Shown here: in pieces, positions 7,396-30,132 of the stretch
Numbering within the stretch: position 1 is the stretch's first letter
Layout of the letters: each line of letters opens with the position of its first letter
Source of the DNA: Agarophyton chilense
Taxonomy: Eukaryota; Rhodophyta; Florideophyceae; Gracilariales; Gracilariaceae
NCBI GenBank assembly: GCA_030374765.1
Contig: JARGXX010000071.1
Location: 806,001-870,000 of the forward strand
Direction: 5' to 3'
DNA: 64,000 bases
Notes under the pieces: generated by a model
Database searches by the model: none
Told to the model about the DNA's origin: nothing
What the model saw: only the letters and a program-made list of their open reading frames with translations
Made by a program: the position numbers and the translations under genes

Positions 7396-8189
7396 TGAAG
7401 TGCAACCCTCGTGAGGGCCGTTTTCCAGGACTTGGTTGTTTTTCCGCCTCGGGCGATACTTGTGAGATCTATGAGTAAAACCGCTACTAGCGGGCTGGCG
7501 TAGCCAGGTGTATACGCGTTGTACGCCAAGTGCACCGGCGGCCGTGCGCCGTGGCCCCGATTCGGGTGTGACTTACCCACGTGTACCACGGGTGGCCCAG
7601 GACAGGTTGGCACAGCATAGCTGGATATTTCTCTATTTATTTAGCTTTATTACACTAGGTTAGGGAGCTCTCTACAGTAGTCTACACTATATAGTGCCAG
7701 GGCGATCTCGCCCTGACACTCAGTAAACCTCCCCAACCAGGGTTCTTGGCTCTAAGTCTTTTTCCGCTTTCGCGAGTCTTCCACACTTTACGGAGGTGAA
7801 GCCGCGTTACTAACGGTAGACTTATCCACCCTGCGTCAACAGGAGACTCACCGCTGTTAGCGTGTATATCTTTCATACCACTGCCGTGTTCTCGCCCCAG
7901 TATTGGGTCTGCTACATATTTCTTTTGGCTCTCGTGGCCCATGCCCCCGATCGCCCCCACTGGGTGGTCCCCCCTTTATCACTTTCCCACTCCCGTGGAA
8001 TACAGCTCATACCTGGTCTGCTCCCTTCTAGCATCCCGCACTCTCCCCGCTTGGCGTGCCGGTGAACCTCGGCCTTACACCCCGACTTAGTCGTGTTCAC
8101 TCCGGAGAGGCTCCGTCGCCGTGCTACCCTCCTTGGAGGAAGACTCGGACATCTTCGTGTGTTTCCGCCGCCCTTGGCGTTGCACTACA
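7396..8189 (+). repeat. Element B 5' LTR
   Basis: 794 bp, TG...CA, preceded by target duplication CTTTC and followed three bases later by the primer-binding site. Confidence 0.93.
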
Positions 8190-8208: not shown

Positions 8209-8349
8209 AAGGCTAAGCGGACCTGGTTTGGTTGTTTTTCACATTGCTGTGCTGTCTTCTCTCGTCGAGATCTGCTTTCCAATTTCTTGTTTTGGACCCA
8301 CTTGGTGGACGCTTTTGTTGTCCTATTCTTAGTGGTCAACGCTACAACC

Positions 8350-10479
8350 ATGTCACGACTACCGACGGAAGCGGAACCCGCGATCACGCGGAGCCGTTCC
8401 GTCAATGACGTGGCGCCTGTGGACCCTGGAAGGGTTCCCCCGCCGTTACCTCAAGCCGCTCCGAAAGGCAAGAGTAAGGGGTCGAACTCCTCCAAGAACA
8501 ACAAGCTACCGCCTAAGGCGTCGAAGAATGGACCCAATTCTGGTGCTGGACCGGCCCCTGCCGTGGATGACCCGGCTCCTGCCGACGAAAAGGCCCAGAA
8601 AAACGAGTTCCACATCGACATAAACTCAAGTGTGAGGCAGCAGATCCGCGTAATGCGGCAAGCGCACAATGCCTTCGTGGAAGAGTTCGAAGCCCTGCGT
8701 TCAAGGTGTGATGGCTCTTCCATGAAGGAAGTGGTTGACGACCTCCGCGTGTTGCGGGCGGACGTCAACACCCTGTTGGAATGTTTTGGTGGTCCTGCCG
8801 CTTACGTGGAAGGTGTCGAGACCCGATTCAATCGTGTTAGCGCCCGTCTCCAGACGTTAGAGCAAACCATCTTGATGGAAGACGTCCCGGAGAAGCCGGT
8901 TGCTGTGTCGCACCAAGCGAAACACGAGAGGAAAAGGGACGATACCCGCCGTCGGCGTGGAAAGCATGACAGCGATGACTCGGACTCGTCGAACTCCTCA
9001 CGGTCGTCGCGTGGCCCTCACCATTCAAATGGGTCGGACTCGTCAGATTCGTCTTCTGACGATGGCCATCGCAGGCGTTCATCCCGTTCTAAACGGTCGT
9101 CTGCCATCCAAGGTGTGATCCGCGCCCGCGAGAAGGGAAGGAAACACTCCGGGTTGAAGGAGCTGAAATGCACCAACCCCCTGTACAAGAAGTTGGTTTC
9201 TTACCGATACTATCGGCTAGAGAACTCCTCTTTGGATCGCACGCCCCGTGGCACGGGTAGAGTGAAGGATTGCATAAATCGTATGCAACTGTCCCTCAGG
9301 AACCAGAACTTTTCTGGAGAAGACCCCATTTTGGTGTTGGATTTCCTTGCGAGGTTCGTCGCCGAAGCGGATATTCTCGGTATGACCGAAGGACAGGCGT
9401 TTATTGCATTCCCGTACTTTATGAAAGGCCTCGCCGAGGATCAATACAACTCTGTAAGAGGTTCGTCTAGAGCCTCCGAAGGAGGGGTAACCTGCTGGCC
9501 AGAAGCAGTACAATACCTCTTGAGGTCCTACGCCACTAATCACGCGATTCAGTCGGCCATTCTCGCTCTTCGCGATACGCGCCAGAAGTCTAGAGAAACG
9601 GAAACCGAATTCTCGGTGCCCCTGAACAAGGCTTTCCACCGTAGTGGGAACGTACACTCCGCCGGAGAGCGCTGCCCCATGTTCATCGATGGACTGAACC
9701 CCGCTATCCGAACACTCGTGGCCCGTTACCGGGAAGACCGAAGGAAAACCACGTATCTGGAGTTGGTCCAACACGCGCAAGCGGAAGGTGACGCTTTAAG
9801 AGCTCGTGCCCCCGGACACAGGTCGCGAACCGCCAAGGCGTTGGTGATGGAAACGAAGTCGCCATCCCTATCGCTGATTGCGAGTGAGCGCCCCCAACAG
9901 GAGTACGACAACGTACACTTCGCCCGAAGCGATATCCATTCGGTCCCGACAACCGAACTACCGTCTACGACGGACGACTCATATGACACGGCCCAGGATG
10001 GACCCCTGCTGTACGCAGACTCTCCCCGTGTTCACGGACCTCGCATCCCGTATTCAAACGGTGCGCTCCGACAGAGTTGCCCTGGATGGAAGGATACCCG
10101 CCAAGCGGTGAAGTTCACGGATACTCGCTCCGGTTTGCAGCCCTCTCGCCCGGGACTCATATGCCACATATGCTACGAACACGGTCACATTTCACCGGAC
10201 TGTATCCTCACCATGAAGGAAGTAGCCCGATTAATCGGTAATTATGAGGCGTTGAGCCCAGTGGAAAAGCGGATTGTTCCGATGACGTCGTATCTTCGAG
10301 CGAAGATCGATTTTCCACGGAGTATTCCGGAGGCGAAACCGCGCAATGCGTTACTTTACCCTGCCGAGCAGGCTTCCGACCACCGCTCCGTTCCTTCAAA
10401 CCCCGCCGCTGGCGCCCCATTGCTAGTGGTTCAGGATTCTGAGGCCCCGCCCCAGGCGGATGGGACTCAGGAAAACTGA
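8350..10479 (+). CDS. Element B gag
   Basis: A 709-codon open frame starting at the ATG at 8350. A charged N-terminal half includes a serine/aspartate-rich stretch and a basic patch. The middle has a retrotransposon gag/capsid-type region, and near the C-terminus is a canonical CCHC zinc knuckle (C-x2-C-x4-H-x4-C, around 10160-10203, residues beginning CHICYEHGH). Gag packages element RNA into a virus-like particle. It resembles the element A gag throughout, for example LVSYRYYRL and SVRGSSRASEGG. It looks whole. Pol follows in another frame, as is usual for Gypsy elements that use frameshifting or re-initiation. Confidence 0.85.
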   Translation: MSRLPTEAEPAITRSRSVNDVAPVDPGRVPPPLPQAAPKGKSKGSNSSKNNKLPPKASKNGPNSGAGPAPAVDDPAPADEKAQKNEFHIDINSSVRQQIRVMRQAHNAFVEEFEALRSRCDGSSMKEVVDDLRVLRADVNTLLECFGGPAAYVEGVETRFNRVSARLQTLEQTILMEDVPEKPVAVSHQAKHERKRDDTRRRRGKHDSDDSDSSNSSRSSRGPHHSNGSDSSDSSSDDGHRRRSSRSKRSSAIQGVIRAREKGRKHSGLKELKCTNPLYKKLVSYRYYRLENSSLDRTPRGTGRVKDCINRMQLSLRNQNFSGEDPILVLDFLARFVAEADILGMTEGQAFIAFPYFMKGLAEDQYNSVRGSSRASEGGVTCWPEAVQYLLRSYATNHAIQSAILALRDTRQKSRETETEFSVPLNKAFHRSGNVHSAGERCPMFIDGLNPAIRTLVARYREDRRKTTYLELVQHAQAEGDALRARAPGHRSRTAKALVMETKSPSLSLIASERPQQEYDNVHFARSDIHSVPTTELPSTTDDSYDTAQDGPLLYADSPRVHGPRIPYSNGALRQSCPGWKDTRQAVKFTDTRSGLQPSRPGLICHICYEHGHISPDCILTMKEVARLIGNYEALSPVEKRIVPMTSYLRAKIDFPRSIPEAKPRNALLYPAEQASDHRSVPSNPAAGAPLLVVQDSEAPPQADGTQEN

Positions 10480-10517: not shown

Positions 10518-13500
10518 GTGATGTTGACGACGCCCGAGGCGTCTCCGCCTCGCTCCCCGGTCACAATCCTCACGAGGAAACAGGCCGTCTCAGACGTGGA
10601 CTCTGAACAGTTTGGTGTTCTACGTCGACCGTGGAAACGTGTTCTTAACCGCCGGTTCCTGGATAGAGTCTTAGTAATGGCCAAGCGCAATTACAAGGTG
10701 TATGCCGACCTTGGCCTTTCTACCCAGTTTATGGTTCGAGTCCTTACTGTTTTGGACACAGGTGCTGGTCCGAATTTCATCGTGGAGTCGCTGCTGCCCC
10801 CGCCCTTGCGGTCTCAGATCCGCCTTGGCGTGGCGCCCGACGTCGCGGACGCGAATAACAACCCGTTGTCAACGGTTGGAACCGTCGCTCTCGTCGTTCG
10901 CTTGGGCTCCTTCGTGGTGAAACTCGACTTTATTGTATGCCGGAAATTGGCTGCCCCCATCATCTTGGGATGTGACTTCTGTGACAGATTCGTTGACGCC
11001 ATAAGGCCCCGCTCAAAGCGTGTTGAGATGGAAGACGGCTCGTCGGTCCCGATTGTCCGTCGTCCGCTGCGGCGTGCCTCCAAGAAGCACGTACCGCTCC
11101 CTGCCGCGCAGGAACCTCCACCCGCTTCTCGGGAGTCTACCAAGCTCCGCGGGGCTGCGTCTGTCCGAATCCCGCCAGAGTCCCAAGTATGGGTGCGTGT
11201 CACTTCCCGTCAACACGGGTTACGAGTCATTCAGCCTCTCTCATCTCTGTACGATGGATATCAACTCGCCGTGGCGAATGGAGTCGCGCAGATTGTCCCA
11301 GACAAGCCGTTCACCGTGTTCGTTGCCAATCTGGGCTCAACCCCACAGTCACTGGTGAAAAACCAAGTTATTGGATCGGTAATGCCTCACCCCACCGCGA
11401 TGGTCCCCACTAGGCTGACCGCTGCCGAAGTCCTCGGTCTCGTTCACTCTAAGGAGGGGGAGGAAGCTGCCGTCCAATCACCGAATGATTCGGAATCGCA
11501 ACCTGCCGACACAGAAAAGAAGCCCGTTCCGACGAGTTACGACCGGGTAGACCCCGTGAAGGAACTCGAGGAACTCGACATCGGTCATGTACCGGAGTCA
11601 CACCGTGAAAGTCTGCGTGAGATGTTACGGGAGTTTACCACAATGTGGGATGGCTCTCTTGGTGAGATAAATACAACGGAACACCGGATAGATTTATTCC
11701 CGAACACCCGACCGGTGGCTCAACACCCTTACAGGGCAGGCCCCAAGGCTCGAGAAGAGGAACAGTTCCAAGTGGACAAAATGCTCCGAGCTGGAGTGAT
11801 CGAACCGGCTCAGTCGCCGTGGGCATCCCCAGTGGTACTGGCTACGAAACCCGATGGGTCCTGGCGCTTTTGCATCGACTACCGTCGCTTGAATGATGTT
11901 ACCGTCAAGGACGTGTATCCGATCCCACGAATGGATGAGTACATTGACTCTCTCGGCACTGCTACTGTGTTCACGGCTTTGGACGCCAATTGGGGATATT
12001 GGCAGGTTCCCGTTAGGGAGGAGGACCAAGATAAGACTGCGTTTGTCTGTCACTCGGGACTCTACCGTTTCAAACGGATGCCTTTTGGTCTAACCAATGC
12101 TCCCGCTACCTTTCAGCGTGCTATCGACATTTTGTTGGCCCGCTTTAAGTGGCGTACTTGCCTCGTCTATTTGGACGATATCATTGTATTCTCAGACAAT
12201 CTGGATGACCATCTCACCCAAGTCAGGGACATAATGACCACGCTACGTGACGCTGGAATAACTCTCAAACTGAGGAAATGGGAGTTCTTTACCGATACTG
12301 TGAAGTATCTCGGGCACATTATCCGTCCTGGACGTGTAATGATCGAGGAAGCTCGAGTGAGGTCCCTTCGCAAGGCGAAAGAACCCGCTACCCAGACGGA
12401 ACTGCGCTCCTTTCTAGGATTGGTCAACGTCTACCGACGGTTTATCCCTAACTTCGCTGACATCGCGGCCCCCTTGAACGCGCTTCTGCGGAAAGGTCAA
12501 CCACCTAAACTGGACCCCTTTACGTCCGCCCAGACGGATGCTTTTAACTCCCTTAGGGAGGCTGTCACATAAGCACCGATTCTATCGCTACCGAAACCCG
12601 GACTACCGTTTTCCGTGGACACGGACTCTAGCGACTACCAGGTAGGCTGTGCGCTCTTTCAAACTACTCCCGAAGGAGAACGCACACCCATTGGGTACTG
12701 GTCAGGCTCGCTCAATGTCCACGAGCGGAACTACTCCGTGTCGGAGAAAGAGTGCCTCGCAGTTGTGTGGGCCCTCTCTACACTCCGCCCCTACCTCATG
12801 GGTGTGCACTTTACGGTTTACACGGATCACTCGTCCCTACGATGGCTCATGACCATCTCGGAGCCGTCAGGCCGCTTAATGCGTTGGAGACTCCGCCTCG
12901 CGGAATATGACTTTGAAGTGATCTACAAGAAGGGCACTCAGAACGCGCAAGCGGACGCGCTCTCGCGTTTACCCACGAATGGGGAAGCTCTAGCCGTCGA
13001 TGACGAGGATATACCTTGCTTCGTCGTAGACGATGGAACACCGGGAAACCCGGATTGGTTACACGAGAAATGGAACGAAAGCCCGGAATCGGACGATGAT
13101 ATTGACGCATTGCTCGTCTCGGACGATTCAAAGAAACCCCCGCCGGGTGATTTTGTGCCGATACCCCCGGAGGAGATGGTCAGATAACAGCAGGGTGACC
13201 CCTTCTGTACGAAGATTCGCGCCTGGCTTAATGGCGGTGCACAACTCCCTTTCGAGGTGAACGATCTTGGATACCTCGTCACGACGGTTCAGTCATCAAC
13301 ACAAGTCGTGGTGCCGCCTACTCTACAGTCTAGAGTTTTGCATCTATCGCACTGTGCGAAACTTGGTGGACACGCCGGTGGACGGAAACTCTACCTCACT
13401 TTGCGAAGGAACTTCTACTGGCCCGCCCTGGCGGTGGATTGCTACGCAACGGTGCGGTTTTGTACCGAATGTGCTAAGAATCGTGTGAAACTTCGCAAGT

Positions 13501-13650
13501 ACTCAACGAAGTTGAAACTATTCCCGGCATGGGCTCCTCTCGAGTTTGTCGCCATTGACATCCTCGGCGAGCTTCTCACCACACGACGTGGGCATAAGTT
13601 TTTACTCGTTATCACGGATCGTTTCTCAAAACTGGTTCGGACCGTACCTT
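10518..13650 (+). other. Element B pol region, part left of the element A insertion
   Basis: Domains in order: a retropepsin-type aspartic protease (LDTGAGPNF near 10755-10780), Gypsy reverse transcriptase (FCIDYRRLN, ALDANWGYWQ, catalytic YLDD near 12170), RNase H (DTDSSDYQVGCALF near 12617) and the start of integrase with its HHCC zinc region. The family polymerises cDNA from its RNA and inserts it into the host genome. The region is broken, and element A interrupts it at 13651. Confidence 0.85.
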
Positions 13651-14563
13651 TGTGGAGCAAAACCCGGCGACGGGAAGTGCTCTCAAGGTGTTCGAAGCCT
13701 TGCTCCCTGGGGGAGGCAGACTCAGAGACAGAGCCCTCCGTTCCGCCCGTAGTGTGGGGTGTAACTCCCACGGGGGATTCCGGCAGTACCGACGGAGGTG
13801 AGGGGTAGAAACCGTGGATCGGAAATGGGTATGGGTATCCCAAAGAATGGGGGAAAATCCGGCGAAGAGGAAAAACGGGGCGAGGGTCGGGCACAAACAG
13901 GCACCGGACCCGAGAACCAGAAAAGGGGCGAAACAACAAAAGAAACCCAATACAGGGGCGAAAACCTGTCCTCGAAAGGAAACACAAAAAGCACGCAACA
14001 AGTAAGCAGAACCCCCACGGGGTATCGTGCACGCAGGTCGTCTGAGCGGTCCCAAGGGGGTGGTTGCACGGAACCCAAACGTGGGCACTCTCCAAGTGGA
14101 GTCGTGTCCCTACGCAGGCGTTGCTAACCAGAGCCCGTTCCGGGTTGTAAGGCCGAAACGATGGCGACGAAGAACCTCTAAAGGTATCGAAGACCAACCT
14201 TGGTTCTCATTTACTCTGAGCTCGGACTGTCAGATCTCGCCTCCCTAAGTAGGGCCCACTAACTAAACTCTACAGTAGTGCACACCTGCTCAGGGCCATA
14301 CACGTGGAGATCCCACTGCCAGGGCCCAAAAATCCAACGTTCTAACAAATATCCGAAATTCGGTGCCAAAATTAAGCCACGTGTATCACGGGGCCAATCC
14401 AACCATGGGCCATCCGAATTTTCACTTATAGGCGAAATATAACCAGAAAACAGTGCCACCTCATCACACCATAGAGGGGATCATAATCATAACCCTCGGA
14501 GGGTTCAATCCTCATTCTATGAGTTGCATCTTCAATTATCCCCTAACTGGGCGTTGCTCTACA
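13651..14563 (-). repeat. Element A 3' LTR
   Basis: 913 bp. On the minus strand it reads TGTAGAGCAACGCC...TTTTGCTCCACA. Nearly identical to 24492-25404. Short open frames inside it are by-products of its composition. Confidence 0.93.
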
Positions 14564-14573
14564 TCTCCCCTCC
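14564..14573 (-). promoter_or_regulatory. Polypurine tract of element A
   Basis: GGAGGGGAGA on the minus strand, directly next to the 3' LTR. The family uses such a tract to prime plus-strand cDNA. Element B has a similar run at 30121-30132. Confidence 0.75.
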
Positions 14574-14643
14574 TTAAGACGAGGAAGAACATTCCGAGCC
14601 GCGGGTGTCTAACTTTCCGATCACTATACATACTAATCTCCCA

Positions 14644-16500
14644 ATGGGGTCCTTCACCACTTCTGAGGATCGCCACAAAACCGGCACATCGGTACAACTT
14701 TCTTCTACTCTTCCGACTTTCGGCGATACGCAACTTCTCGCAGCAGCGGTTTCGACTAGCCCTCTCAAGGGAATGAACCCATACGTCATCAACCCACACT
14801 CGGGGCCATCGGCCTCCGCGCCGGCGGACAACGAAGCTCCCCAGCAGGGTGGATATTTCTCCGGTTTGGATGCGGCTCCGTCAGGTACCGAACCTTCCGC
14901 CTCGGCGGGCAACCGACATCCTCAAGAGGATTTGGACATTAACGCGGTGGCGTGGAACTCCGCTCATGCGATGCCCTTGGTAGCAAACTCCAGAGGTTGG
15001 ATCTCAAACGAATCCTTTCGAAGGTGGAGTCCCCTTACCGATCCGGTGATATATTCCCGCGCTCCGTGGTTCCATCCGACAGCTGTTCGCGACGATGAGC
15101 TCATCGACTCCTACGTAGAGGACGGCTTATTGCCGGGTGGCCTACCTGTCGAGGTTGTACGTTCTCCCGATTGGAGGGCGCGGGTAGCCATAGAGCCTCA
15201 GTATCTATACCGCGGTCGCGGGGAGTCCCTGGACAAGGCGCGCGCAGCGATGGAGGCTCTGGCCTACCAGCGATTGGAGAGGCCACGCTTTGACCATCTG
15301 GTTCCCCCGGAGTACGGGTTCGATGTCGCCTATTACCGCACGTACGGTGAGGTCTCCTACGGAGACAACTGGGCAGCCTTTCCCGAAGCCGAGTTCCGCG
15401 GACCAGGTTTTCCTCTCCGAGAAGATATACTCCAATGGAGTCGTCCCATCATTCGGGCTGAATTCAGGTACCTTCAGCGGCAGTTTACCCAATATGGGTT
15501 CGATCGACGCGTGCGCTTCGAGCGCCGCTCGCGCTCCCGTTTCGGGTTCCTTGTCCCGTATCCTCACGTGGAACTGGAGCGTATCCGTAACACGGCGAAG
15601 GTTGGGCGACTCGTGCCCCTTCCAGCTTGGTGGAGTAAGGTCGAGGTCCCCCGAGGGTGCTTTGCTGAACTGCCCCCGTGCATCTACTATATCGGGTCTC
15701 GTTTGATGCACGACTCGAACTCGGGAAACTGGGCCCTCGTTGCAGCCGAGTGGGCAGCCCGCGTAGCGGCGCACCTCCTCTGGGATGCTCATGACCATTT
15801 CCGTATCTGGTATATTCCTCCGATGCTACGGACCATCATGCGTCAGATCGACCTTGTCCCAGCGTTGGGTTCGGTCAGCAACGTGCAGGACCTGTATCCA
15901 ATCTTGGACGTGATCGACAACACCCAATGGGATCGAGTTCCAGTGGAAAATCAGCCCGCAGGGAAAGGATCCGCGCGAGACAAGTCTCCTGGCCGGTACG
16001 ATCCGGGCTCCGGTAACTGGGTCTATTACAATCCCTTCGAAGGGGTTCGCATCAGCACGGCGCAAGCACGGGCGCTGATGGACTCGCCTCGACCGATGCC
16101 GGTGGGACACCCGACGGGGTTCATTTATACCGACGATTACGAGTACAAGCCTCCAGTAGACCTGGATGATCCAGCGTTGGATAACGACATGCCAGCTCCT
16201 AGTGGAGTACTCCCTGTAGAGCCATCTGCACCCTTTCAACCAGTGGGAGCGACCTCAGCTGCGGCGGCGAATGCATCCGGTGGCCGTCCATCTGCTCCCC
16301 CCGGGTGGGGTGTGAACACCCTTGCGCAGGCGCCGGTTGCCACTCCGCAAGCGGATAGTGTGCGACAAGGCCTCGTGAACGCGGGCATTCCGATTCCCCC
16401 GGGTATGACGGATGTGAGCCAGATGTTGGCTTTCGCCTCGGCGTACCATCAGGGTCAGATTCCCAACGGTGGGGCGGGTCCCTCCTCGGGCTTTCCGTAG
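14644..16500 (+). CDS. Element A antisense open frame, unknown protein (618 aa)
   Basis: An uninterrupted frame from the first ATG, transcribed against gag-pol and lying between the chromodomain and the 3' LTR. The protein has a low-complexity N-terminus and a central block (about residues 138-400) rich in W, Y, R and aromatic pairs. Landmarks are APWFHP (140-145), RPIIRAEFRY (267-276) and RSRFGFLVPY. The tail is rich in proline, alanine and glycine. Element B encodes a related protein in the same place. No signal peptide, membrane segment, zinc motif or catalytic signature is evident, so it does not look like an envelope protein. Antisense frames downstream of pol are known in some plant Gypsy elements; I see no basis for homology to those. 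Function unknown. Confidence 0.75.
   Translation: MGSFTTSEDRHKTGTSVQLSSTLPTFGDTQLLAAAVSTSPLKGMNPYVINPHSGPSASAPADNEAPQQGGYFSGLDAAPSGTEPSASAGNRHPQEDLDINAVAWNSAHAMPLVANSRGWISNESFRRWSPLTDPVIYSRAPWFHPTAVRDDELIDSYVEDGLLPGGLPVEVVRSPDWRARVAIEPQYLYRGRGESLDKARAAMEALAYQRLERPRFDHLVPPEYGFDVAYYRTYGEVSYGDNWAAFPEAEFRGPGFPLREDILQWSRPIIRAEFRYLQRQFTQYGFDRRVRFERRSRSRFGFLVPYPHVELERIRNTAKVGRLVPLPAWWSKVEVPRGCFAELPPCIYYIGSRLMHDSNSGNWALVAAEWAARVAAHLLWDAHDHFRIWYIPPMLRTIMRQIDLVPALGSVSNVQDLYPILDVIDNTQWDRVPVENQPAGKGSARDKSPGRYDPGSGNWVYYNPFEGVRISTAQARALMDSPRPMPVGHPTGFIYTDDYEYKPPVDLDDPALDNDMPAPSGVLPVEPSAPFQPVGATSAAAANASGGRPSAPPGWGVNTLAQAPVATPQADSVRQGLVNAGIPIPPGMTDVSQMLAFASAYHQGQIPNGGAGPSSGFP
16329..16356 (+). repeat. 28-bp direct repeat within element A, copy 1
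   Basis: Begins GGCGCCGGTTGCCACTCC. Identical 28 bases recur at 17555-17582 in the same orientation. Confidence 0.85.
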
Positions 16501-16559
16501 TTCCGCCTTCGGGCAATTGTGGAGTCCATAGCTTGGCGACAATAGTAAACTTCTGATAT

Positions 16560-16725
16560 TTGCATAACTTCCTTTCTTCTTCCTTCCTAGGATCTTAACT
16601 TCTACTTCTCTTCTTCTTCCTTCTTAGGATCTTCTTCATCTTCTTCTTCATCTTCTTCCCTTCTTAGGGTCCAATCTTCTTCTTAATCTTCTTCTCCACT
16701 TCGTGGGTCTTCTTTTCCTTTTTCA
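16560..16725. repeat. Polypyrimidine CTT-rich tract in element A
   Basis: About 165 bp made mostly of CTTCTT and TTCCTT units (purine-rich on the element's sense strand), between the 3' end of the antisense frame and the chromodomain end of pol. It separates two convergent coding regions. Element B has a shorter purine-rich stretch at 27994-28015 in the same position. Confidence 0.8.
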
Positions 16726-16899: not shown

Positions 16900-19800
16900 T
16901 TACCCGACTTGGGCACGATCCAGATTTGGAGGCAAGGTTACCCGAGCGCGTCGGTGATAGGATAAAACCTTAGACCTCGGAAGGAGCTCAATGGGTTCCA
17001 CTGTATCCTCATCAGGCGAGAATCCGTACCATCGGACTTGGTAGCGGACTTCTCCCTCGCGGGTGTAGATGTGACGCACGATGCGATCGATAACGAATTC
17101 CTGCGGGTACACTTTTCCCTGTTCGGGCTTCTCTTCCATCTTGGAACGCTCTAGTTCCCTTGAAGGTGTCAACGTAGGGTTTACACACACCCCGGTGGGT
17201 TCTTTTCCGTGTTGCGAGCGGGTCTCAGCACTTCGTCCAAACGGCACCGAGTGGCCTGTGGGCTACGTTGTAACTTCCGTCTACGGAGTGAAAACGGCCC
17301 CGTTTTGGGTTCTTCTTAAAGCTGAGATCTTCCCGATAACAACGGTGTTCTTAGATTCCGTGACGGTTGAGAAACCGCGACGCGGTAGAGTCTCCAATCT
17401 CAGGGGGATAAGACTTCAACGTCAACCCGAGCTACGGGGACGAATGTTGCTCTGGTGCAACGCGCCGTGCGACGGAGGCGGTTTGCGCGACGGTTGGTTG
17501 TCAGAGCCTTTTGATTGGCTCGGTGCCATTCGACGTGTGCCACATAAATGCGCGGGCGCCGGTTGCCACTCCGCAAGCGGATGTGAGGTGGCGCTTTCGG
17601 CACGCGCTAGCACTCTCCTGAGCTGTCCCCGACGGGTCTCACTTATTTCTTTCCCATTCCTGAGGGTTCCAGTGTCTCCATAGGAGTTCCTATTCTCATT
17701 CCATAACGGAGAGCCAAATTTGGTCAACCTCGTCGTCGAGATCTTCCCCGTGCGGGTCCGCTGACACAGCTCGTTCCCGAGAAAGCGGGGTTTGGGTGTG
17801 CGACACCTCAGTGTCTCGTCCGCGGCGGCGGGTGATCGTCGGCTCTGTAGGCGTTCCGGGTGCGGAGTTCTCCAAACGACTCTCCCTAGGCGGGTTTTCG
17901 TCATCTTTTCTTACGTCGTGCTCGGCTGGGTCGGCGGTGATGTCGCTACCCATACGCTGGGGTTGTGACTTCTCTGTCGCCGGCTCGGTCGGGCTCGCCG
18001 TCTCACTGTGAGAACTAGATTCCCTGTTAGGGCGACTGGCTGACGCCGAAACATCGTCCTGCGAAGGAACTAAGTCCTCCTCCCCCTCCTTAGGCGGAGA
18101 GCCAGGAGGCTTGATTACCTCCGGTGGGGGAGTAACTCTGTAAGAGTTCGTTGACTGGGCCCTTGAGGGAGCGGGCCCAGGTTCGGGAGTATCCGAAGTT
18201 TCCGGTGGGTCGGTTAAACCACGTTCCGGGTGCGGAAGTATAACGGGGCGGGTGTTCGAATCTCCGCCTGACGGGTTAACTTCCGTTGAATCATCCCCTG
18301 TGGAGGGCGTTGGTGCCGACACCACTTCCACATTTGGGTTGGGCGCTCGTGTGATGCGGTCCCTGGAGATCCGTTCGTGGCGGTTAGCGATATCCAATAC
18401 CACCGTGTCCGGGTCTACAGAAACCACACGATAGGGTCCGTCCACAATTGGCGAAAGCTTGTGCCTACGTTCCTTTTCAGGATTGTAGTATTCCTTTCGA
18501 AGGAAGACGAAGTCGTCGGGCTCCACCTGAGGTAGAGGTTTGCGAACCCGATTGTCAAAGTCCTTCTTGTAGGCGCGTTGAGCTTTGTCCATTGCTTTCC
18601 GGGCTATCGGCACCATCTTCGTAAGCCACTCCTTCCAGGCTTCTCGGTACAATCCCGGTGACGGGTACGTCGACAGCGTCGGTTGAGCCTCGATGGCGAC
18701 CGGCGGCGGTGTCCTCGACAGTACCAGTTCGAATGGGGATAAAGATGTAACCCGATGTACCTGGGCGTTGTATGCATACGTGATAGCATCTGTGTACAAG
18801 TCCCAATTTTTGGGGTGATCCGCAACATACGATCTCAAAGCGTTGAGTATCGTGCGGTTAAACCTCTCCACCTGGCCATTCCCCTGAGGGTGGTACGTAG
18901 TAACAAATAAAATCCTTACATCAAGGATTCGACATACATCCTGAAAGAACTTTGATGCGAATTGCCCTCCGTTGTCGGATAACAACTGCACCGGCTGTCC
19001 ATATACGAACACCCAATGGGTCACGAACGCTTGCGCGACGGTAGCGGCGGTGATCCGCTTCAGCGGCACAGTTCTCGTTAACTTAGAGAATCTGTCAGAA
19101 ATGACAAGCAGATACCGATGACCTCGGGGCGTTCTGATAAACTCCCCTAGGATGTCTATGGCCACTAATTCGAGTGGAGCCCGTGCTGGGAACAGCGTCA
19201 ACTTCTTAGAGTGCTTCCGAAGTTTGACGTCATTCTTGACGCAATTGGCGTAGGCCCGTCTGACGGCGTAACAATCGAATACCATTGCCGGCCAGTAAAA
19301 GTCCCTTCTCAACGTGAGGTACAGTTTTCTTCCCCCGGGGTGGGCGCCAACCTTCAAATAGTGAGTGAGGTGTAATACCCTCTGTTGTAGGGTGTGCGGC
19401 ACCACTATCCTCGGGCGAGGTCCAACGATCCTGATTAGGTAACCCTGATCGTCGTCCTCCAAAGGTAACTGAAATCCTCCGTTGAGGCGAGCCCGAATCC
19501 GTGTACAGAATGGGTCGAGCTGTTGCTCGCGTATCATCTCCTCTGGAGAGATAGGTATAAAAGAGCCGGTCGGCGAATCCAGACTCTCGTTGACGAGTAT
19601 ATCGTCACAAACATCATCCGTCAGCGGTTGAGCTCCTCCCTCGAGGTCCGATACCATAAAACATGGGATGTCATCGTCCTCGTAGGGTTCCGTTTCCGCT
19701 GTGGTTCCCAAGCGGGATAGTGCATCAGCATGAGTGTTCAGCTTCCCTTTCTTGTACAGGATATCAAAGTCGAATTCTGACAGTCGGAGACGCCAGCGCA

Positions 19801-22231
19801 TAAGGCGGCCCGAGGGTTCGGAGATCTCCAGGAGCTAAAGCAAGCATGCGTGGTCCGTATGGACTTTGAAACGAGTACCCATCAGATAGGGGCGAAGTGT
19901 AGCTAAGGCCCACACAACGGCTAAACATTCTTTCTCGGAGACCGAGTAGTTCCTTTCATGGACATTCAGGGAACGTGACCAGTACCCAATAGGGTGACGT
20001 TCACCATCCTCAGAGGATTGGAACAGTGCACACCGTACTTGGTTTGCACTAGCATCGGTGTCCACTTCGTAAGGGAGCCCAGGATTGGGTAGAGCCAAGA
20101 TTGGCGGTGATGTTACGGCATTCACCAGTGCCGTGAAGGCAGACGCTTCCGCGTCGCCAAAAGGTTCCAGTTCAACTGGTTGTCCCTTCGTCAGGAGCCT
20201 GTTGAGGGGGGTGGCAATATCCGCAAAGTTCGGGACGAATCGGCGGTACACGTTACAGAGACCTAAGAAGGATCGCAACTCCGTTTGAGTTTTCGGGTGT
20301 TTTGCTTCCTTCAAGGATTTCACTCGTACTTCATCGATTGAAAGCTGTCCGGGACGGATGATATGACCCAGATATTTAACCTAATCGGTGAAAAACTCGC
20401 ACTTCTTGAGTTTCAAGGTGATTCCCGCGTCGCGGAGTATCTTCATTACGTCCCTGACGTGTTCGAGGTGATTACCCAGGTTGTTGGAGAAGACAATAAT
20501 GTCGTCTAAATACACTAGACACGTCCTCCACTTGAAGGGAGCCAACAGCATGTCTATCGCCCGTTGAAACGTTGCGGGGGCATTTGTCAACCCAAAAGGC
20601 ATCTTCCGGAATCGGAAAAGTCCTTGATGACACACGAACGCCGTTTTGTCTCGATCTTCCTCCCTAATAGGGACTTGCCAGTAGCCCGAATTGGCGTCGA
20701 GGGTAGAGAAAACAGTAGCGCTCCCAAGGGAGTCGATGTATTCGTCCATCCGAGGGATCGGGTACACATCCTTAATGGTTACCTCGTTCAGGCGTCTGTA
20801 ATGGATGCAGAAACGCCACGATCCATCCGGTTTCGGAACTAACACCACTGGTGAGGCCCAAGCGGACTGGGCAGGTTCAATTACGCCCGCTTTAAGCACC
20901 TTCTCCACCTGAGATTTCTCCTCTTCCCGAGCTTTCGGTCCAGCCCTGTAAGGGTGTTGGGCAATAGGCCGAGTGTTCGGTAACAAGTCGATGCGGTGTT
21001 CTGTAATCCCAATAGTTCCAAGGGAACCATCCCACATGGGGGTAAATTCACGAAGCATGTGCCTCAGCTTCTCCCGATGAGATGCGGGTACATGGTTGAG
21101 ATCCCATTTTCCCAATTCCTGAACAGGATCCGTCTGGTCTGCTCCTGTGATAGGGGCCGTAACCTCCTGAGGTTTAAAGTGTTCAGCGTGTGGAGCTGCA
21201 GTCGTATGCTCACCGTCTTCCGCGATTTCGGCAGTTTCGGCAGTGTCCTCCCCCTCCTTAGGGTCCGCCACACCAAGGACCTCTGCGATAGAGATCTTTG
21301 TAGGTACGACCGCATGCGGGTGTGGAAGAACAGAACTCAGGATCTGGTGTTTGACCAAATGCTGCGTTGTCTTTCCAAAGTTGGCTACCAAAACCTTGAA
21401 AGGTTTATCCGGTTCCACGGAGACAACCCCATTCGCAAGGGCGAGTTGACGCCGCGTATACAGAGACGGGTTCGTTTGTACCACATGCACACCAATTTGC
21501 TTGGTAACAACTGTGACCCAAACCTGGGTTTCTGGCGGGATAGCCACTGACTTCGCAGCCTTTACCCGTGTAGACACCGGGTCCTTCTTCACAGATTCCT
21601 GCGTGACGGGGAGAGGAACGCGTGTTCGCGCTGCTCCCTGTAAGGGTTTACGAACGATTGGGATCGTAGACCCGTCTTCGAGTTCCACAGTTCTATTCCG
21701 AGGACGGATGGCTTCCACGAAGCGGTCGCAAAAGTCACAACCCAGTATGACTGGTGCTGCAAGTGACTTGCATACAATAAACTCTAGCTGAACGAGATAG
21801 GAGCCTAACCTCACCATGAGGGAAATTGTACCCAGTGTCCGTAGCGGGTTGTTGTTCGCATCGGCGATATCCAAACGTGGACCGGTCCGAACTTGAACCC
21901 GGAGCAGCGGGGGTAACAATTCAACATGAATTAAGTTAGGAGCGGCTCCTGTATCCAGGACAGATATTTGACGAACCATAAACTGGTTGGACAGGCCGAA
22001 GTCGGCGAATACCTTATAATTCCGCTTGGCCATTACCATAACTCGATCCGGAATACGGAGATTACGGGACCGTATCCACGGGCGACGGAGGACACTAAAG
22101 TATCCCGAGTTAACGTCGGTGTCAGCCGTTTTCCTTGAAAGGATAGTCACAGCTGGGGAGCGAAGCTGGAGCGCCTCGGGCGTCTTCAACTCCGGCTTAG
22201 AAGACGCCCCTCCCGCAGGGGAGACTCCCAA
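16900..22231 (-). other. Element A pol region
   Basis: In minus-strand order: aspartic protease (LDTGAAPNL), Gypsy reverse transcriptase (FCIHYRRLN, TLDANSGYWQ, catalytic YLDD near 20510), RNase H (DTDASANQVRCALF), integrase with a zinc-binding HHCC region and catalytic core (DNGGQFAS, WVFVYGQPVQ), a proline-rich linker and a C-terminal chromodomain near 16960-17130 (YQVRWYGFSPDEDTVEP). Chromodomains in such integrases are known to steer insertion to particular chromatin. It sits next to gag in a different frame. The region is broken, with about three breaks. Confidence 0.88.
17555..17582 (+). repeat. 28-bp direct repeat within element A, copy 2
   Basis: Identical to 16329-16356. This copy lies between the integrase core and the chromodomain. 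Confidence 0.85.
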
Positions 22232-22233
22232 GT

Positions 22234-24264
22234 TTAGTTTTTCGAAGCGGACCCCACCGAATTCGGTGCAGCTGCCTCGAAGGGGACCGGTTGTTCCCTG
22301 TTCGCGGGTACAAGTTCTGTATCCCTGTCAGCAAGGTGAGCTCGGAGTATCCTTTGTTCCTCATAGGACCTACTCGGGACTCGAGCTTTCTCCTCAGGGG
22401 TCAGAGCCTCGTACTGAGCGATTATTCGTGAACCCTCCCGCAGGGGAAATGTGCAGTCTGGTGCTTTGTGACCACGGAGGTAACACAAATAGCAAATCAG
22501 CTCTGCCGGGTTCGGTTGTGGACGTGAATCCACGCGACGTGGTGCTGTATCCCTCCATCCGGGGCGAGAGAACCGAGCAGCGGTATTCGCAAAAGGTAGC
22601 GATGCGGCTGGCACCCTCCGTCCGTGGGTATAGAGCGCAGGGTCTTCATCCGTAGTCGGAGCGGATGTCGACGGCAACTCAGACGTTCCCATAGATTCGG
22701 GGTTACTTCCCATGAAGTAAATGTTATCATTGACCCCCACAGGGGCCGGGCCTCCTGCGAGTGACAAAGACGAGTTACCTCCATCGGCGAGGAGTGCACT
22801 TGTCGGCCGACTCTTTCGGTTCTGCCGGGCACGGAGAGTATCCCCCTCAGCCTGGGCGTACTGAACCAATTCCAAGTAGGGCAGCTTGCGCTTCTCTTCC
22901 CGATGTCGGGCAACCAATGCCCTTATCGAGGGGTCCAAACCATCCACAAACATGGAGCATCTCTCGTAGGCGGGGAATACATTCCCGCATCGGTGAAACG
23001 CTTTATTCAAGCGAGTTGAATACACCGTTTCGGTTTCCATCGGCTTCTGCCGCGTATCCCTTAATGCAAGGATTGCTTCCTGCATCGCATTTCCAGTAGC
23101 GTATGACCTCAAGAGGTACTGCACCGCTTCGGGCCAGCACGTGACTCCCCCTTCCGAGGCTCGGGATGATCCACGGACGGAGTTGAACTGGTCTTCAGCC
23201 ATACCCCTTAAGAAATAAGGTAATGCAAGATACGCTTGCGCTTCACTCATACCGAGGATGTCAGCCTCCTGGACGAACCTCGCAAGGAAATCGAGCACCA
23301 GAATTGGGTCTGTTCCTGTGAACTCCCTCTTCTGTAGGGTGATGCTCAGCCTTTTGATGTAGTCCTTGACCTTACCCGTTCCGCGGGATGTTCGATCTCC
23401 CGAAAGGTTATCCAACCGGTAATAGCGGTACGATAGCAGCTTCCGATAGAGAGGATTCGTCGGTTTCAGCTCCCTTAATCCAAGGTGTTTCCTACCCTTC
23501 TTCCGGGTACGGATTACACCTTGAGAGGTGTAAGTAGCCTTCGACCGAGTCGCCCGGGATGACCGGCGTCCATCTTCACTATCCGAAGATTCGGAGGACG
23601 AACTCGATGACGAGCGATTGGAATCGGAATCCGATAAATCCTCTTGGAGGTGAACCCTCTTCTTTGACTTGCGGCGGTCCCGTTTAGCGGAGCGGTGTTC
23701 TTCGTCTTCCGAAACGTCGGGTTTATCCTTCGAGGCTTCTGCGTCTCCGTCCATACGGATAATGGCCTCGAGGGTGTCCAGCCGAGCTCGGAAGCGTTCC
23801 GCTTGCACGCGGTGTTCTTCCACGAGGCTCCGGTACTCCTGGAAAAAAACCCCAGGGGTACCAAAGCTTTCCAAAAGGGAGTTCAAATCCCTCCTCAGGG
23901 TACGAAGGTCATCGGCGACTCCCCGCACCTGGGCGTCCTCCACCTTGAGGCGGAGGGTAGTATCCTCCTGAAGGAGCTCGATATGAGCCGCGTTGGCGAT
24001 ATCAATTCGAGTCTCCAGGCGCTGTAATTCAGGGTCGGCCCGACTTCGGGGTGCTGCTGAGGGGGTCTCCACCACTGGAGCTGGGCCCACAGCCACGACC
24101 TCTCGAGGACCTGAAACCACTGAGGGTGCTCTCCGAGTGTCCGGATCGATACCGGAATCGTTCCGATCTTCGGGAATTGAGCTCCTCGACCTAGGCGGGG
24201 CCGGGGGCACTGAAGCCGCTTGACGGTTCGATCCAGTCCTGGAACCACGGGTAGGCGGCGTCAT
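22234..24264 (-). CDS. Element A gag
   Basis: 676 codons from the ATG at 24264. An acidic, proline-rich N-terminus is followed by a serine/aspartate run, a basic KRDRRKSKKR patch, a capsid-type middle and a CCHC zinc knuckle (CYLCYLRGHKAPDC, C-x2-C-x4-H-x4-C, near 22470-22510). The start lies about 230 bp inside the 5' LTR boundary. It is collinear with the element B gag, with shared blocks such as SVRGSSRASEGGVTCWPEA. It looks whole. Confidence 0.87.
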   Translation of the reverse strand: MTPPTRGSRTGSNRQAASVPPAPPRSRSSIPEDRNDSGIDPDTRRAPSVVSGPREVVAVGPAPVVETPSAAPRSRADPELQRLETRIDIANAAHIELLQEDTTLRLKVEDAQVRGVADDLRTLRRDLNSLLESFGTPGVFFQEYRSLVEEHRVQAERFRARLDTLEAIIRMDGDAEASKDKPDVSEDEEHRSAKRDRRKSKKRVHLQEDLSDSDSNRSSSSSSSESSDSEDGRRSSRATRSKATYTSQGVIRTRKKGRKHLGLRELKPTNPLYRKLLSYRYYRLDNLSGDRTSRGTGKVKDYIKRLSITLQKREFTGTDPILVLDFLARFVQEADILGMSEAQAYLALPYFLRGMAEDQFNSVRGSSRASEGGVTCWPEAVQYLLRSYATGNAMQEAILALRDTRQKPMETETVYSTRLNKAFHRCGNVFPAYERCSMFVDGLDPSIRALVARHREEKRKLPYLELVQYAQAEGDTLRARQNRKSRPTSALLADGGNSSLSLAGGPAPVGVNDNIYFMGSNPESMGTSELPSTSAPTTDEDPALYTHGRRVPAASLPFANTAARFSRPGWRDTAPRRVDSRPQPNPAELICYLCYLRGHKAPDCTFPLREGSRIIAQYEALTPEEKARVPSRSYEEQRILRAHLADRDTELVPANREQPVPFEAAAPNSVGSASKN

Positions 24265-24489: not shown

Positions 24490-24491
24490 CT

Positions 24492-25404: not shown

Positions 25405-27981
25405 ACCTTTACGGAAGATATCCGCTTTCACGGTTGCACAAGCATTTGTAACCCATTGGGTATTCGTCTACGGCCCGCCGGTTAATCTTCTATCCGATAT
25501 CGGAAAACAGTTCGCATCGCGATTCTTCGAGGACGTGTGCAGGATTCTTGACATCAAGAACCTGTTCACAACGACCTATCACCCCCAGTGTAATGGGCAA
25601 GTGGAGCGGTTTAACCGAACGCTATTAGAGTCTCTCCGTTCTTACGTTGCCGACCACCCAAAGACATGGGATTTATATACCGACGCCTTGACGTTCGCGT
25701 ACAATACGCAGGTACACCGTACTACGGGCTTGACTCCATTCGAACTGGTCTTGTCCCGCCCTCCGCCCGCTGTCGCGTTAGAATCCCAGCCCACGCTGGA
25801 TGCGTTCCCTTCCGTGAAGGATTATCGCCACAGGTGGAAAGAGTGGCTTACGAAGCTGATCCCGGTCGCCCGAAGCTCGATGGCTCGTGCCCAAGCCGCT
25901 TACAAGCGTGATTTCGACTCTCGCGTACGCGGTAAGGCCCCGGCAATCAAAGCCGGTGACTTCGTGTTCGTCCGTAAGGAGTACTGGAACACTGAAAAGG
26001 AAAAGAAGCACAAGCTTTATTCCGTCGCGGACGGTCCTTACAAGGTCATTTCGGTGAAAGACGACACCATCGTGGTGGAAATTGTCGACGCTCATGAGCG
26101 GATCTCCCGCGACCGCGTTGTACTCGCCCCTCCACCGACGTTGGAAGTAACCGAAATGGGTCAACAATCCCTCTCTGAGGATGATGGTGCTCGGCACACA
26201 ACGGTGGCTCAGCCCACTGCCGTGGTTTCCAGACCTTCTGCGTTACCACACCCTACCCGGGGACTCTCTGACTTGCCGATCTTATCGGACCAAGGCCAGA
26301 ATGGCCTCTCTTCTCTCACGCCACGGCGCGGTGTCTACCCCCGCCCGTTGGGCGTTTCAACCACTCCCCATGCCGCTCTGTCTCAGGAGGGGGAGGAGGC
26401 TCATAACTCTCGTCGAGAGACGGAAACCGCTTCGTCGCGTCATGACAACCGTGGTGCACGAACTTTTGGACACACCAGCAAGAACAACGGTGATCCGGAC
26501 GTCCCGTCTACCGACGTGCCATCTCCACATCTGCGCGCTACAGCCGTTGCTGAACCCTCTATGGGAAGCGCCACCGCATCTGCGTCTGATCGCACTCCCC
26601 ACGGGGACTCTACTCGACAGGACGCACCACGTAGTGGAAACCCCCTCGCCGAAGCGAAACCGAAATCGTCGCAGGATGCTGTTCGCCCTCACGATACTGG
26701 ACCGGCTAGGCCGTCGAGCGTTGACCCGCAGCCCGTGGGTCACGGTTCGTCGACACCAGCTACGCTGGAAAACTTAGAGAACGCCCTCGCAGGCCCCTCT
26801 AGGCCGAATCGATCGGAAGTGGTCCCTCGTACTGTACGGCAGGACACACCGGCTAAGCCGGGCAAGCACACCGTAGCAGACGGAAGATTCACACCCAGCA
26901 CGCTTGATGCTGGTTCAGAACCCGCGCGAAGTGGCGGACGCACTCCGAGTGTCTCGGTTGACCCCGACAGCGTTGTCGAAGGCGCACCGGTCACCCCGGA
27001 GAATGTGCCCGTCAAGGACGGAAGCACCTCGTCGCCGAGTGAAGTTGAACCCTCGAAAGGGATAGTTGAGGACGAACTCGCTCCCCGCAGGGGTCCTCGC
27101 GGCGCACTTCGCCGCCCGTTGGTGAGGAAGGCACGGTTGACCCGGAGTTGCACGCCCGTCGCGGTACTGTGTCGCTTAAGCGAGCAGACAAACCGGCAGC
27201 GCCGTTGCACACGCCCTCACGTGAGGAGGCGGAACGCAGCACTGCGCGGAGTACTCCCAGCCATCAGCCGGACGTGTCACGTGACCAGAAGACACCCGGC
27301 TCGGGAGATACGCCAATCAACGCCCAAGGCGGCTCACCCGGCAAGGCACGACGCCTCGTGATGAAACCGCCTCCCGCGTCAAGTTCAGCACCGTCGCGAC
27401 GGATTTCACCCCGAAGAATCGCGGAACGCGACCGCAAAACCCAGCCTTGGGATGAGTCCGCGTTCCCCCGAAGGGTAGCCTCTGCACGAGAACTCTCGGA
27501 AAGCATTTCGACCCAAAAACTGGGAGAATTGCCCCACGGGAAGGCCTCCGGCCGAAGCCGTCGAACTGACGCTCTTCGTCATGACGCCTTGGCGGAAGCA
27601 ACCCGCCAAGCGGCCAAGGCAACCCGGAACCCGGTTCGTTCCCCTACCCAGGGCATGGAAAGGCAACGCCAACCCATGGACCCCTCGGGGGAAGGGCACA
27701 GTAGCCCACACGCACCTGCGGACGTACACCGGTTTGGTTCGGTGACGAGTACACCGCAAGGGCGGGAAGTCTACGAGAAGGAGTTCGTGGTCGACCACAT
27801 AGTGGAGCACTCATACCATCCGGATGGTTATATTCAATACCTCGTCCGTTGGTACGGTTTAGGGCCCGAATGGGATTCGGATGAGCCGATGGAACATCTC
27901 CCACGTTCGAAGGTGGTGTCATATCACCGCAGAACGCGGACGGGAATCCCGGCATCGGTTGTTAAAGCCCAGGTGGGATAA
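25405..27981 (+). other. Element B pol region, part right of the element A insertion
   Basis: The remainder of the integrase core (NGQVERFNRTLLESL near 25590, KTWDLYTDALTFAYN), a long linker rich in proline, serine, threonine and arginine, and a chromodomain (QYLVRWYGLGPEWDSDEP near 27835-27890). The linker is much longer than in most Gypsy integrases. The region is broken and separated from the left part by element A. Confidence 0.85.
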
Positions 27982-28159: not shown

Positions 28160-30097
28160 TCACGGGTTCGGCTCACCGCCCCCGGGTTGGTTACCTCCCT
28201 GGAGGCGGGTGATCAAGGCCTCGCGCATCGCGGCAACATCGCCACTCGCTGCGTCGGTCCCCAGCCCCACCTGTCGCAGGAACTGGGAGATCACGGCCGC
28301 TTGACCCGCCAGAGCGGAGCTCGCATCGCCTGGGGCGGACGCCCCACCACTTGGGAGATTCACCGGTGGAACCGGAGGTGGTCCAGCTACCGCGTACTCC
28401 GACCCAGCCCCCGCGGGGTTATCCAAACCCGCGTAAGGCGTGGCTGGCGTCCCCGCGTTAGAGGGACCTTCCGCTTCGGATCCCTCGACCTCCGCCTCGG
28501 CGTACGCTTCCCCGTCGTCGGGTTCGTTGTCCACCCTTGGATCGTCGCCGTCGTAGACGTGGTAATATTCATCCGCGTCCACGAAACCGATGGGATGCCC
28601 GTCGGGGATATGGCGTGGTGCAAACCGGAGTTCGTTGGCTTCCTCCGCGGAGATTTCGTGCCCTTCCCAGGGGTCAAAGTATACGAAATCACCTCCCAAG
28701 GGAGTACGCCTTCCTGGTGACAGGTCCTGACCCCGGCTACCCACGGTGCACCCGCTTTGTTCAATCGGAACGGCGGTCCAGTCCAACTGGTCGATGTAAT
28801 CGAGAAGACCCGCCACTTCCCCGGCGTTGGTTACTCCACCAAGTGGGATGCTCAGGTCCAGGCTGCGAATCGCGGACCTCAACCGGAACGGGAGGAACCA
28901 CAGTCTGTACTGGTCATACACCTTCCAGAGGAGGAACACCGCCGCGCGGACTGCCCATTCGGTAATCACCACGGACCACAGTCCGGACTCGGGATCCTCG
29001 ATGAGGTACGAACCGTAATACGTGATGGCGGGTGGCAGCTCGATGTAACAGCCCCGGCAGGCCTCGAAGTTCGACCACCACAGTGGAATGAGGACATAGC
29101 GACCCCGTCGGTCGGCCACGCGAAGGCGTTCGATCTCCACGTTCTGATACGGGACCAAATACCCGAATCGGGATCGTGCTCGACGCTCGAAGCGGATCAG
29201 GGCGAGGAAGTTGGCCCGCGCAAGTCGACGCATGTAGCGGAATTCTGCCCGGATAATCGGTCGCGTCCAGCACATGGCCTTTTGCCGTGCTATCGGGATG
29301 ACCCTCCACGAGAGTGTTTCCAAACCCGCCAAGCGGTCGACGTAACCAATCTCACCTTGAGTGCGGTAAAGCCGAATGTCGGTGCCGAGACCATCGGGGA
29401 TGGGATATTCGAAAGGAGCCCGGCGAAGCCGTTGATGGCCAAGAAGGACGAAGGCCGCATGAGCGGAAGCCGAGGTTTCCCTACCCCGGCGCGCCACAGC
29501 GTGGACCGGAACCGCTACGCGGCGTCGCCAATCGAACGAAGTTGTCGCCACGGCCGGAATATCGCCCGGAAGCATCCCGTTGCCATCGGTGTACATCGCT
29601 ATGAGCGCTTCTTTTAACACCGCAATCGGGTGGAACCACGGCGCAAGCCGGAGAACGGACGCATGATGCCCAGGATGGCGCCCGACAAGCATGTCGTATG
29701 GCGGCCACCCTCTCGGGGGGAACATTCCGTACGGAGCAGCAGCCGCGTTCGCGATAGGAATCTGCGGCGCAGCCGATGACGCGCTTTGCCGAAGCAGAAC
29801 GGACCGGAAGCCGGAGAAGTACCCCGCAGGGAGACGGTTGGGTTGATTGTTTTGGTTGCTCATCGGTGAGCGAAGAGGCCGGATGACCGGAAGAGGAGAC
29901 CGGCGAAGCGGGAGACGATGCCGAGGATTCGGAGGACTGGCACGCAAGGATGCAGATTCGGTTGAGATGGAACGTTGAGAACGGTTGTTGCCAGGAGACT
30001 GGAGTTTTGCCGCACTGCGTTTCTTGACACCGGATGAAGTGGATCCCAGCGAGCTGGTTGCACTCTTGTGCATTCGTCTCGGCGCGTCGCCCACCAT
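28160..30097 (-). CDS. Element B antisense open frame, unknown protein (645 aa)
   Basis: An uninterrupted frame from the ATG at 30097, transcribed against gag-pol and ending about 180 bp from the chromodomain end. It is related to the element A antisense protein along the central block. Matches include GYFSG (about residue 92), APWFHP (152-157), YRTQGEIGY, RPIIRAEFRY (279-288) and RSRFGYLVPY (308-317). An N-terminal part of about 80 residues rich in serine and arginine has no counterpart in A. The tail is acidic, then rich in proline and glycine. No transmembrane or signal region is evident. Conservation of the protein, while surrounding DNA and LTRs differ, argues that it is translated in the family. 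Function unknown. Confidence 0.75.
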   Translation of the reverse strand: MVGDAPRRMHKSATSSLGSTSSGVKKRSAAKLQSPGNNRSQRSISTESASLRASPPNPRHRLPLRRSPLPVIRPLRSPMSNQNNQPNRLPAGYFSGFRSVLLRQSASSAAPQIPIANAAAAPYGMFPPRGWPPYDMLVGRHPGHHASVLRLAPWFHPIAVLKEALIAMYTDGNGMLPGDIPAVATTSFDWRRRVAVPVHAVARRGRETSASAHAAFVLLGHQRLRRAPFEYPIPDGLGTDIRLYRTQGEIGYVDRLAGLETLSWRVIPIARQKAMCWTRPIIRAEFRYMRRLARANFLALIRFERRARSRFGYLVPYQNVEIERLRVADRRGRYVLIPLWWSNFEACRGCYIELPPAITYYGSYLIEDPESGLWSVVITEWAVRAAVFLLWKVYDQYRLWFLPFRLRSAIRSLDLSIPLGGVTNAGEVAGLLDYIDQLDWTAVPIEQSGCTVGSRGQDLSPGRRTPLGGDFVYFDPWEGHEISAEEANELRFAPRHIPDGHPIGFVDADEYYHVYDGDDPRVDNEPDDGEAYAEAEVEGSEAEGPSNAGTPATPYAGLDNPAGAGSEYAVAGPPPVPPVNLPSGGASAPGDASSALAGQAAVISQFLRQVGLGTDAASGDVAAMREALITRLQGGNQPGGGEPNP

Positions 30098-30120: not shown

Positions 30121-30132
30121 AGGAGGGGGAAA
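30121..30132 (+). promoter_or_regulatory. Polypurine tract of element B
   Basis: AGGAGGGGGAAA directly before the 3' LTR. Confidence 0.75.

Follow-up and report, generated by a model that had tools for sequence, protein, structure and literature searches.

The window analysed here is a stretch of 64,000 nucleotides from the red alga Agarophyton chilense (GenBank assembly GCA_030374765.1, contig JARGXX010000071.1, positions 806,001 to 870,000 of the forward strand). It holds two Gypsy elements, one nested in the other, each with a long open reading frame on the strand opposite to gag-pol. Self-comparison of the window places element A at 13651-25404, inserted in the pol gene of element B (7396-30926), which is thereby split. 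The gag-pol region of A lies on the minus strand, from 24264 to 17696, and that of B on the plus strand, from 8287, where it is broken by A. The features of the two elements, in window coordinates, are as follows.

Element A:
13651..14563, minus strand: 3' LTR, 99.67% identical to the 5' LTR; its edge is 80 nt from the start of the antisense frame
14564..14575, minus strand: polypurine tract AAGGAGGGGAGA, as read from the sequence, between the 3' LTR and the antisense frame
14644..16500, plus strand: antisense frame, 618 codons; ATG at 14644, stop codon at 16498-16500, conserved core at residues 140-493
16900..17247, minus strand: chromodomain frame, downstream of the pol stop and in a different frame
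17696..22231, minus strand: pol, with a protease-like segment, reverse transcriptase (RT) and integrase; three separate frames in this copy
22234..24264, minus strand: gag frame, 676 codons
24492..25404, minus strand: 5' LTR, the partner of 13651..14563

Element B:
7396..8189, plus strand: 5' LTR, 98.9% identical to its partner; target duplication CTTTC
8287..10479, plus strand: gag frame, with a Pfam gag match below its cut-off
10518..13650, plus strand: first part of pol, ending at the insertion of A
25405..27361, plus strand: pol after the insertion of A, with the remainder of integrase
27148..27981, plus strand: frame ending in the chromodomain (Pfam match)
28160..30097, minus strand: antisense frame, 645 codons, homologous to that of A; ATG at 30097, stop codon at 28162-28160
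30121..30132, plus strand: polypurine tract AGGAGGGGGAAA, as read from the sequence
30133..30926, plus strand: 3' LTR; its edge is 35 nt from the start of the antisense frame

Both elements have the LTRs, target duplications and polypurine tracts of Ty3/Gypsy LTR retrotransposons, and gag is followed by pol with RT before integrase, which is the Ty3/Gypsy order. The target duplication of A is ACCTT, at 13646-13650 and 25405-25409. A CCHC-like knuckle can be read near the end of the A gag frame, and the Pfam matches in A pol run from RVT_1 to H2C2 and rve, the protease match staying below its cut-off. No blastn match was obtained between the LTRs of A and those of B, which had been described as different in the initial annotation of this DNA. 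The region 16560-16720, in the gap where the antisense and chromodomain frames of A converge, is pyrimidine-rich on the plus strand and partly repeated.

The host site of element B is an A-type LTR (6843-7395 and 30927-31255). It forms part of a larger nest (5637-5919, 6843-7395 and 30927-36608), in which the 5' LTR of a third element, C, is seemingly broken by a stretch containing the A-type LTR, within it B and within B element A. Element C encodes RT, RNase H and integrase and has a chromodomain match below the cut-off; its RT is 30% identical to that of A over 139 residues. No antisense frame is present in C, where only about 46 nt separate the integrase stop from the repeat read as the 3' LTR. 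Host genes recognised by Pfam (a PLAA-like WD40-PFU-PUL protein, two kinesins, a TPR-Tic22 protein and two NUBPL/ParA-type ATPases) occupy 39519-41978, 42573-45983, 48033-50147, 55057-56637, 56813-59104 and 60366-61592.

The chromodomain match (PF00385) scores 34.2 bits in A, against a cut-off of 25.1, and 24.9 bits, just under it, in B. In both elements the domain is found about 400-600 nt past the point where the integrase frame stops, and it is read in a different frame. A chromodomain frame is present in all 14 copies searched (L001-L014; split in L007 and with one stop in L005), and the A integrase matches listed all end at the same residue. Splicing may link the chromodomain to integrase, or the domain may be made separately.

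The positions of the antisense frames given in the initial annotation, between the chromodomain and the 3' LTR of both A and B, were reproduced, and all five of the shared motifs it named (GYFSG, APWFHP, YRT-x-GE, RPIIRAEFRY and RSRFGxLVPY) occur in both proteins. Each chromodomain-to-LTR region was subjected to 500 dinucleotide shuffles; the longest frame obtained had 343 codons for A (observed, 640) and 493 codons for B (observed, 652), so that both antisense frames are longer than any obtained by shuffling. Of 41 A copies that were aligned, 38 retain the ATG at 14644 and 39 an inner ATG, which leaves the start codon uncertain. Nine of the 41 copies (L067, L070, L073, L074, L078, L080, L081, L082 and L084) lack the same 2 nt a few bases before the presumed ATG; this deletion marks a subfamily and agrees with a start at 14644 or later. 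Frame-shifting indels among the copies are seen near the start only, a pattern that may reflect the way in which the copies were found.

The window belongs to a genome of 79.8 Mb. Among the A-type places listed, 43 of 70 are free of stops and 27 have at least one; the corresponding counts for the B-type places listed are 25 (one of them frame-shifted) and 43 of 68. A listed antisense frame lies within 15 kb of 23 of the 66 listed gag matches, and one of these pairs was judged to be a mis-pairing with a neighbouring element. In all 22 plausible listed pairs the frame is on the strand opposite to gag. The distance between the two is 5.7-5.9 kb in 16 pairs, 4.41-4.46 kb in three and 1.72-1.77 kb in three. 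In the six short-spaced pairs, all A-type, gag and the frame are thus closer together by about 1.3 or 4 kb, judged from coordinates alone; the spacing suggests internal deletions in pol that left both gag and the antisense frame in place. Likewise, a listed frame is found within 3 kb of 24 of the 64 listed integrase matches, on the opposite strand in all 24 cases and 1149-1293 bases away. The frame has the same place and orientation in A, B and the listed pairs and is copied with the element, its amino-acid sequence apparently kept by selection while the lineage was mobile.

An argument that had been made for expression, namely that the frames are whole where both pol regions are broken, holds for the two copies in the window, where pol is spread over several frames, but not for family A. 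Of the 64 listed A-type integrase matches, 22 are in an open frame of at least 1540 codons, 13 of these 22 being without a marked stop, and a stop-free frame of that length is long enough for a whole pol. Since long open frames for pol are frequent in A, the broken pols belong to the two window copies and the argument fails.

The antisense proteins of A and B are 38% identical over 522 residues (36.7% over 592 codons), rising to 45% in a core of about 354 residues. Between the same two elements the identity is 66% for the RT-containing segment of pol, 59% for the integrase segment and 51% for gag. These values make A and B sister families, and they show the antisense protein to have evolved somewhat faster than gag. 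Both families do carry the frame, as had been pointed out, but as sisters they are not independent witnesses to its retention.

Searches of the protein database (about 8000 candidates scored per search) returned two homologues from outside, P0003 and P0004, and a profile search added no further one. P0003 is 51% identical to the A protein; P0004, the hypothetical protein BWQ96_10156 of Gracilariopsis chorda, is 39% identical to it. Both are members of the same protein family as the A protein, with a similar core length and an acidic tail, and their database records give no function. In the four proteins (A, B, P0003 and P0004) the arginine- and tryptophan-rich core has a nearly constant length of 353-358 residues with 45-56% identity, the C-terminal tail of 118-140 residues has a pI of 4.1 throughout, and the N-terminal tail is variable. 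A gag homologue, P0008, is 58% identical to the gag of A; because both P0003 and P0008 are given on a contig of 21947 bases, the antisense protein and a related gag most likely lie together in that source. No gag homologue is listed on the 70517-base contig of P0004 from G. chorda. A. chilense, like G. chorda a member of the Gracilariaceae, contributed nine of the 54 gag homologues, and no antisense homologue was found among its database proteins, again with about 8000 candidates scored per search.

The initial annotation recognised no homologue of this protein, and profile searches bore this out: there was no match in Pfam, NCBIfam or PHROGs (E up to 10) or in PADLOC (E up to 1), and the PDB yielded four chance matches only, with E values of 0.9 to 2.1. 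The Pfam result (E up to 10) holds for all four proteins and includes PF04195, the TRP28 domain of Retand. An AlphaFold model of the full-length protein had a mean pLDDT of 39, too poor for use. A search for membrane segments by hydropathy found none, the highest 19-residue mean being 0.93-1.54 in the four proteins. An Env-like third gene, which would have the sense orientation and a membrane segment, does not fit this result or the antisense orientation.

The main rival to a regulatory or helper protein is a structural component of the particle, a second capsid or a nucleocapsid-like protein, translated from an antisense mRNA. An arginine-rich core of such constant length followed by an acidic tail would suit a protein of this kind. 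So would the six of 22 listed pairs with shortened spacing (1.72-1.77 and 4.41-4.46 kb against about 5.7 kb), which, on coordinates alone, have apparently lost parts of pol and retained gag together with the frame. Against it, the antisense protein has no Pfam gag match and no profile similarity to the gag of its own element (hhalign probability 0.1%), the latter value also disposing of a duplicated or copied gag. We consider a particle component unlikely, although it is the best placed of the alternatives.

Variation among copies was analysed in sequences taken from the top of the protein-similarity lists, a choice that favours whole frames. The initial annotation had named a dN/dS near 1 among copies as grounds for abandoning its reading. 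The pooled values are 0.52 for A (19 of 21 copies, two of other length being omitted) and 0.68 for B (all 21 copies); in A, one stop-ridden frame on the other strand (minus frame 1) has a slightly lower value, 0.47; this frame and the antisense frame have their third positions in common. We then divided the variants of 41 A and 21 B copies into private ones and those shared by at least two copies. Private synonymous, replacement and stop changes number 131, 311 and 15 in A (neutral expectation 127, 310 and 20) and 94, 206 and 11 in B (90, 210 and 11). Shared changes number 48, 64 and 2 in A, where both of the shared stop changes were seen, and 21, 32 and 0 in B, and replacements among them are depleted, at 0.55 times the neutral level in A and 0.65 times in B. 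The contrast between private and shared variants is significant in A (Fisher's test, p 0.009) and in the pooled set (p 0.006), not in B alone (p 0.27). Shared A variants fall at codon positions 1, 2 and 3 in the numbers 41, 20 and 53 (p 0.0006), and private ones in the numbers 140, 158 and 159. Eleven A gag copies, of the 66 listed, gave private counts of 55, 101 and 1 (neutral 46, 105 and 6) and shared counts of 10, 13 and 0, small numbers all.

The reduction in replacements is not confined to the antisense frame: the same ratio is 0.70 and 0.71 in two other frames of B, against 0.65, and 0.49, against 0.55, in the other-strand frame of A, which has about 21 stops per copy and shares its third positions with the antisense frame. 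The within-family test therefore picks out the antisense frame weakly, and it is the comparison of A with B that carries the weight. No internal stop is present in 21 of the 41 A copies and 10 of the 21 B copies, and private stops are about as many as decay after insertion predicts. Our reading is that the frame would be whole and under selection in copies that move and would decay freely once inserted, which makes it probable that selection acted on the protein during the mobile phase of the elements.

This pattern bears on the idea that the frame began as a host or viral gene, was captured in reverse orientation and is retained as cargo because it benefits the host. Antisense placement, a narrow known distribution and the 43 of 70 listed A copies without a stop would all fit a capture. 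However, the private variants look neutral and give no sign that the host keeps single copies. At the sensitivity used, moreover, the protein database contains no homologue beyond red algae and the source of P0003, IMG/VR contains none, and a search of prokaryote contigs gave one locus only, a chance match in which a long bacterial frame has a similar DNWVYFDPFTGE stretch. A captured gene thus appears quite improbable.

The comparison of A with B is more direct. Of 124 fourfold sites 85 differ, where saturation would give 74%; in the core, dS is about 2.7, near saturation, and dN is 0.58. The antisense frame has a mean BLOSUM score of 1.65, against 0.64 for the next best frame, which contains 22 and 17 stops, and all five other frames are less conserved. 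Had the antisense RNA been the functional product, by pairing with genomic RNA or as a source of small RNAs, the open frame would be incidental and no codon-wise conservation would be expected. The review PMC7264820, in the portion available, considers a regulatory role of antisense transcription in elements of this type, but the differences between A and B at codon positions 1, 2 and 3 (50, 45 and 66%) peak at the third position, the other frames are less conserved, and the shared A variants avoid positions 1 and 2. We give an RNA role very little credence.

Least probable of all is a chance open frame or the shadow of constraint on the sense strand, an origin of the conserved blocks that the initial annotation had allowed for. 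On the sense strand, frames of 197 codons in A and 286 codons in B do overlap the antisense frames, and minus frame 1 of A also has low ratios (0.47 and 0.49) since third positions coincide. Yet shuffling never reached the observed length, and across the alignment of A with B the sense-strand frames contain 6 to 22 stops and show weaker conservation, so that such constraint does not explain the conservation of the antisense frame.

It is thus very probable, judging from the sequences, that the antisense frame is coding and under selection. The broader proposal, that it is an accessory gene of one chromodomain-bearing Gypsy lineage, expressed from the LTR and acting as a helper or regulator, we regard as likely. 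The suggestion of a selected and hitherto undescribed accessory gene of algal retroelements is upheld by near-saturated synonymous sites beside a conserved protein, by the depletion of replacements among shared A variants, by the lack of a match to any family and by the red-algal homologue.

As to expression, the antisense mRNA would most likely begin inside the 3' LTR, because the ATG is only 80 nt (A) or 35 nt (B) away and the polypurine tract occupies part of the gap. At such a distance transcription would have to begin in the LTR, unless the transcript has an exon further upstream or arises by read-through from adjacent DNA. On balance we favour transcription from the 3' LTR. The LTR would then fire both ways: the 5' LTR would give the genomic RNA, and the 3' LTR a short mRNA in antisense. 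The product is predicted to be soluble, on the hydropathy result, with its arginine- and tryptophan-rich core and acidic C-terminal tail; more tentatively, it might act in trans on the cycle of the element itself, probably in the nucleus. By analogy with the antisense proteins of Grande (gene23) and Retand, a nuclear regulatory or helper role is possible, if somewhat doubtful. The protein may help the elements to spread. As both families are rich in similar copies, LTR-driven antisense expression and a role of the protein are open to experimental test.

Similar arrangements are known from other elements. The antisense gene of HTLV is called HBZ. HTLV-type retroviruses resemble A and B in having an antisense gene at the 3' end (PMC7264820; PMC11963269, as far as the accessible text of each goes), and the HTLV antisense promoter is placed inside the 3' LTR (PMC7264820). 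The geometry of frame and LTR in A and B would suggest an LTR promoter of the same kind, a likeness of position.

The closest counterparts in layout are the aORF-3R genes of plant Gypsy elements, such as gene23 of maize Grande, rice RIRE2, ORF4 of Silene Retand and bean PvRetro13, according to the sections of PMC7264820 at hand. These too are long frames opposite to gag-pol, between pol and the 3' LTR, found in many copies and several families and with no clear homologue elsewhere (PMC7264820). The red-algal frames differ from them in the host group and, by Pfam scan, in having no match to PF04195, the TRP28 domain of the Retand protein. Retand, moreover, is assigned to a non-chromovirus lineage in the part of PMC11963269 available, whereas A and B have a chromodomain. 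Transcription and a nuclear location have been reported for Grande gene23 (PMC7264820), while the A and B frames are known from sequence alone. The function of retrotransposon antisense genes is described as unsettled in the same source. The initial annotation was right that antisense frames occur in plant Gypsy lineages, but they are found outside plants as well: the fungal element Boty of Botrytis cinerea has an antisense ORF in the same position and orientation (PMC7264820), which makes it comparable in placement.

No such gene is reported for red algae in the literature searched on red algae or Gracilaria and antisense or extra frames, mainly non-subscription and in part-text form (including PMC12477816 and PMC8220671). 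Within that literature the architecture is already known from plants and a fungus, and the protein family and the red-algal setting are new. We consider it about an even chance that red-algal Gypsy elements gained an antisense gene independently of plants and fungi, with a bidirectional 3' LTR and a protein family without relatives elsewhere that aids or controls the cycle of the element. If so, LTR elements would have gained antisense accessory genes at their 3' end several times, with unrelated proteins, and a red-algal case whose protein is unrelated would suggest convergence.
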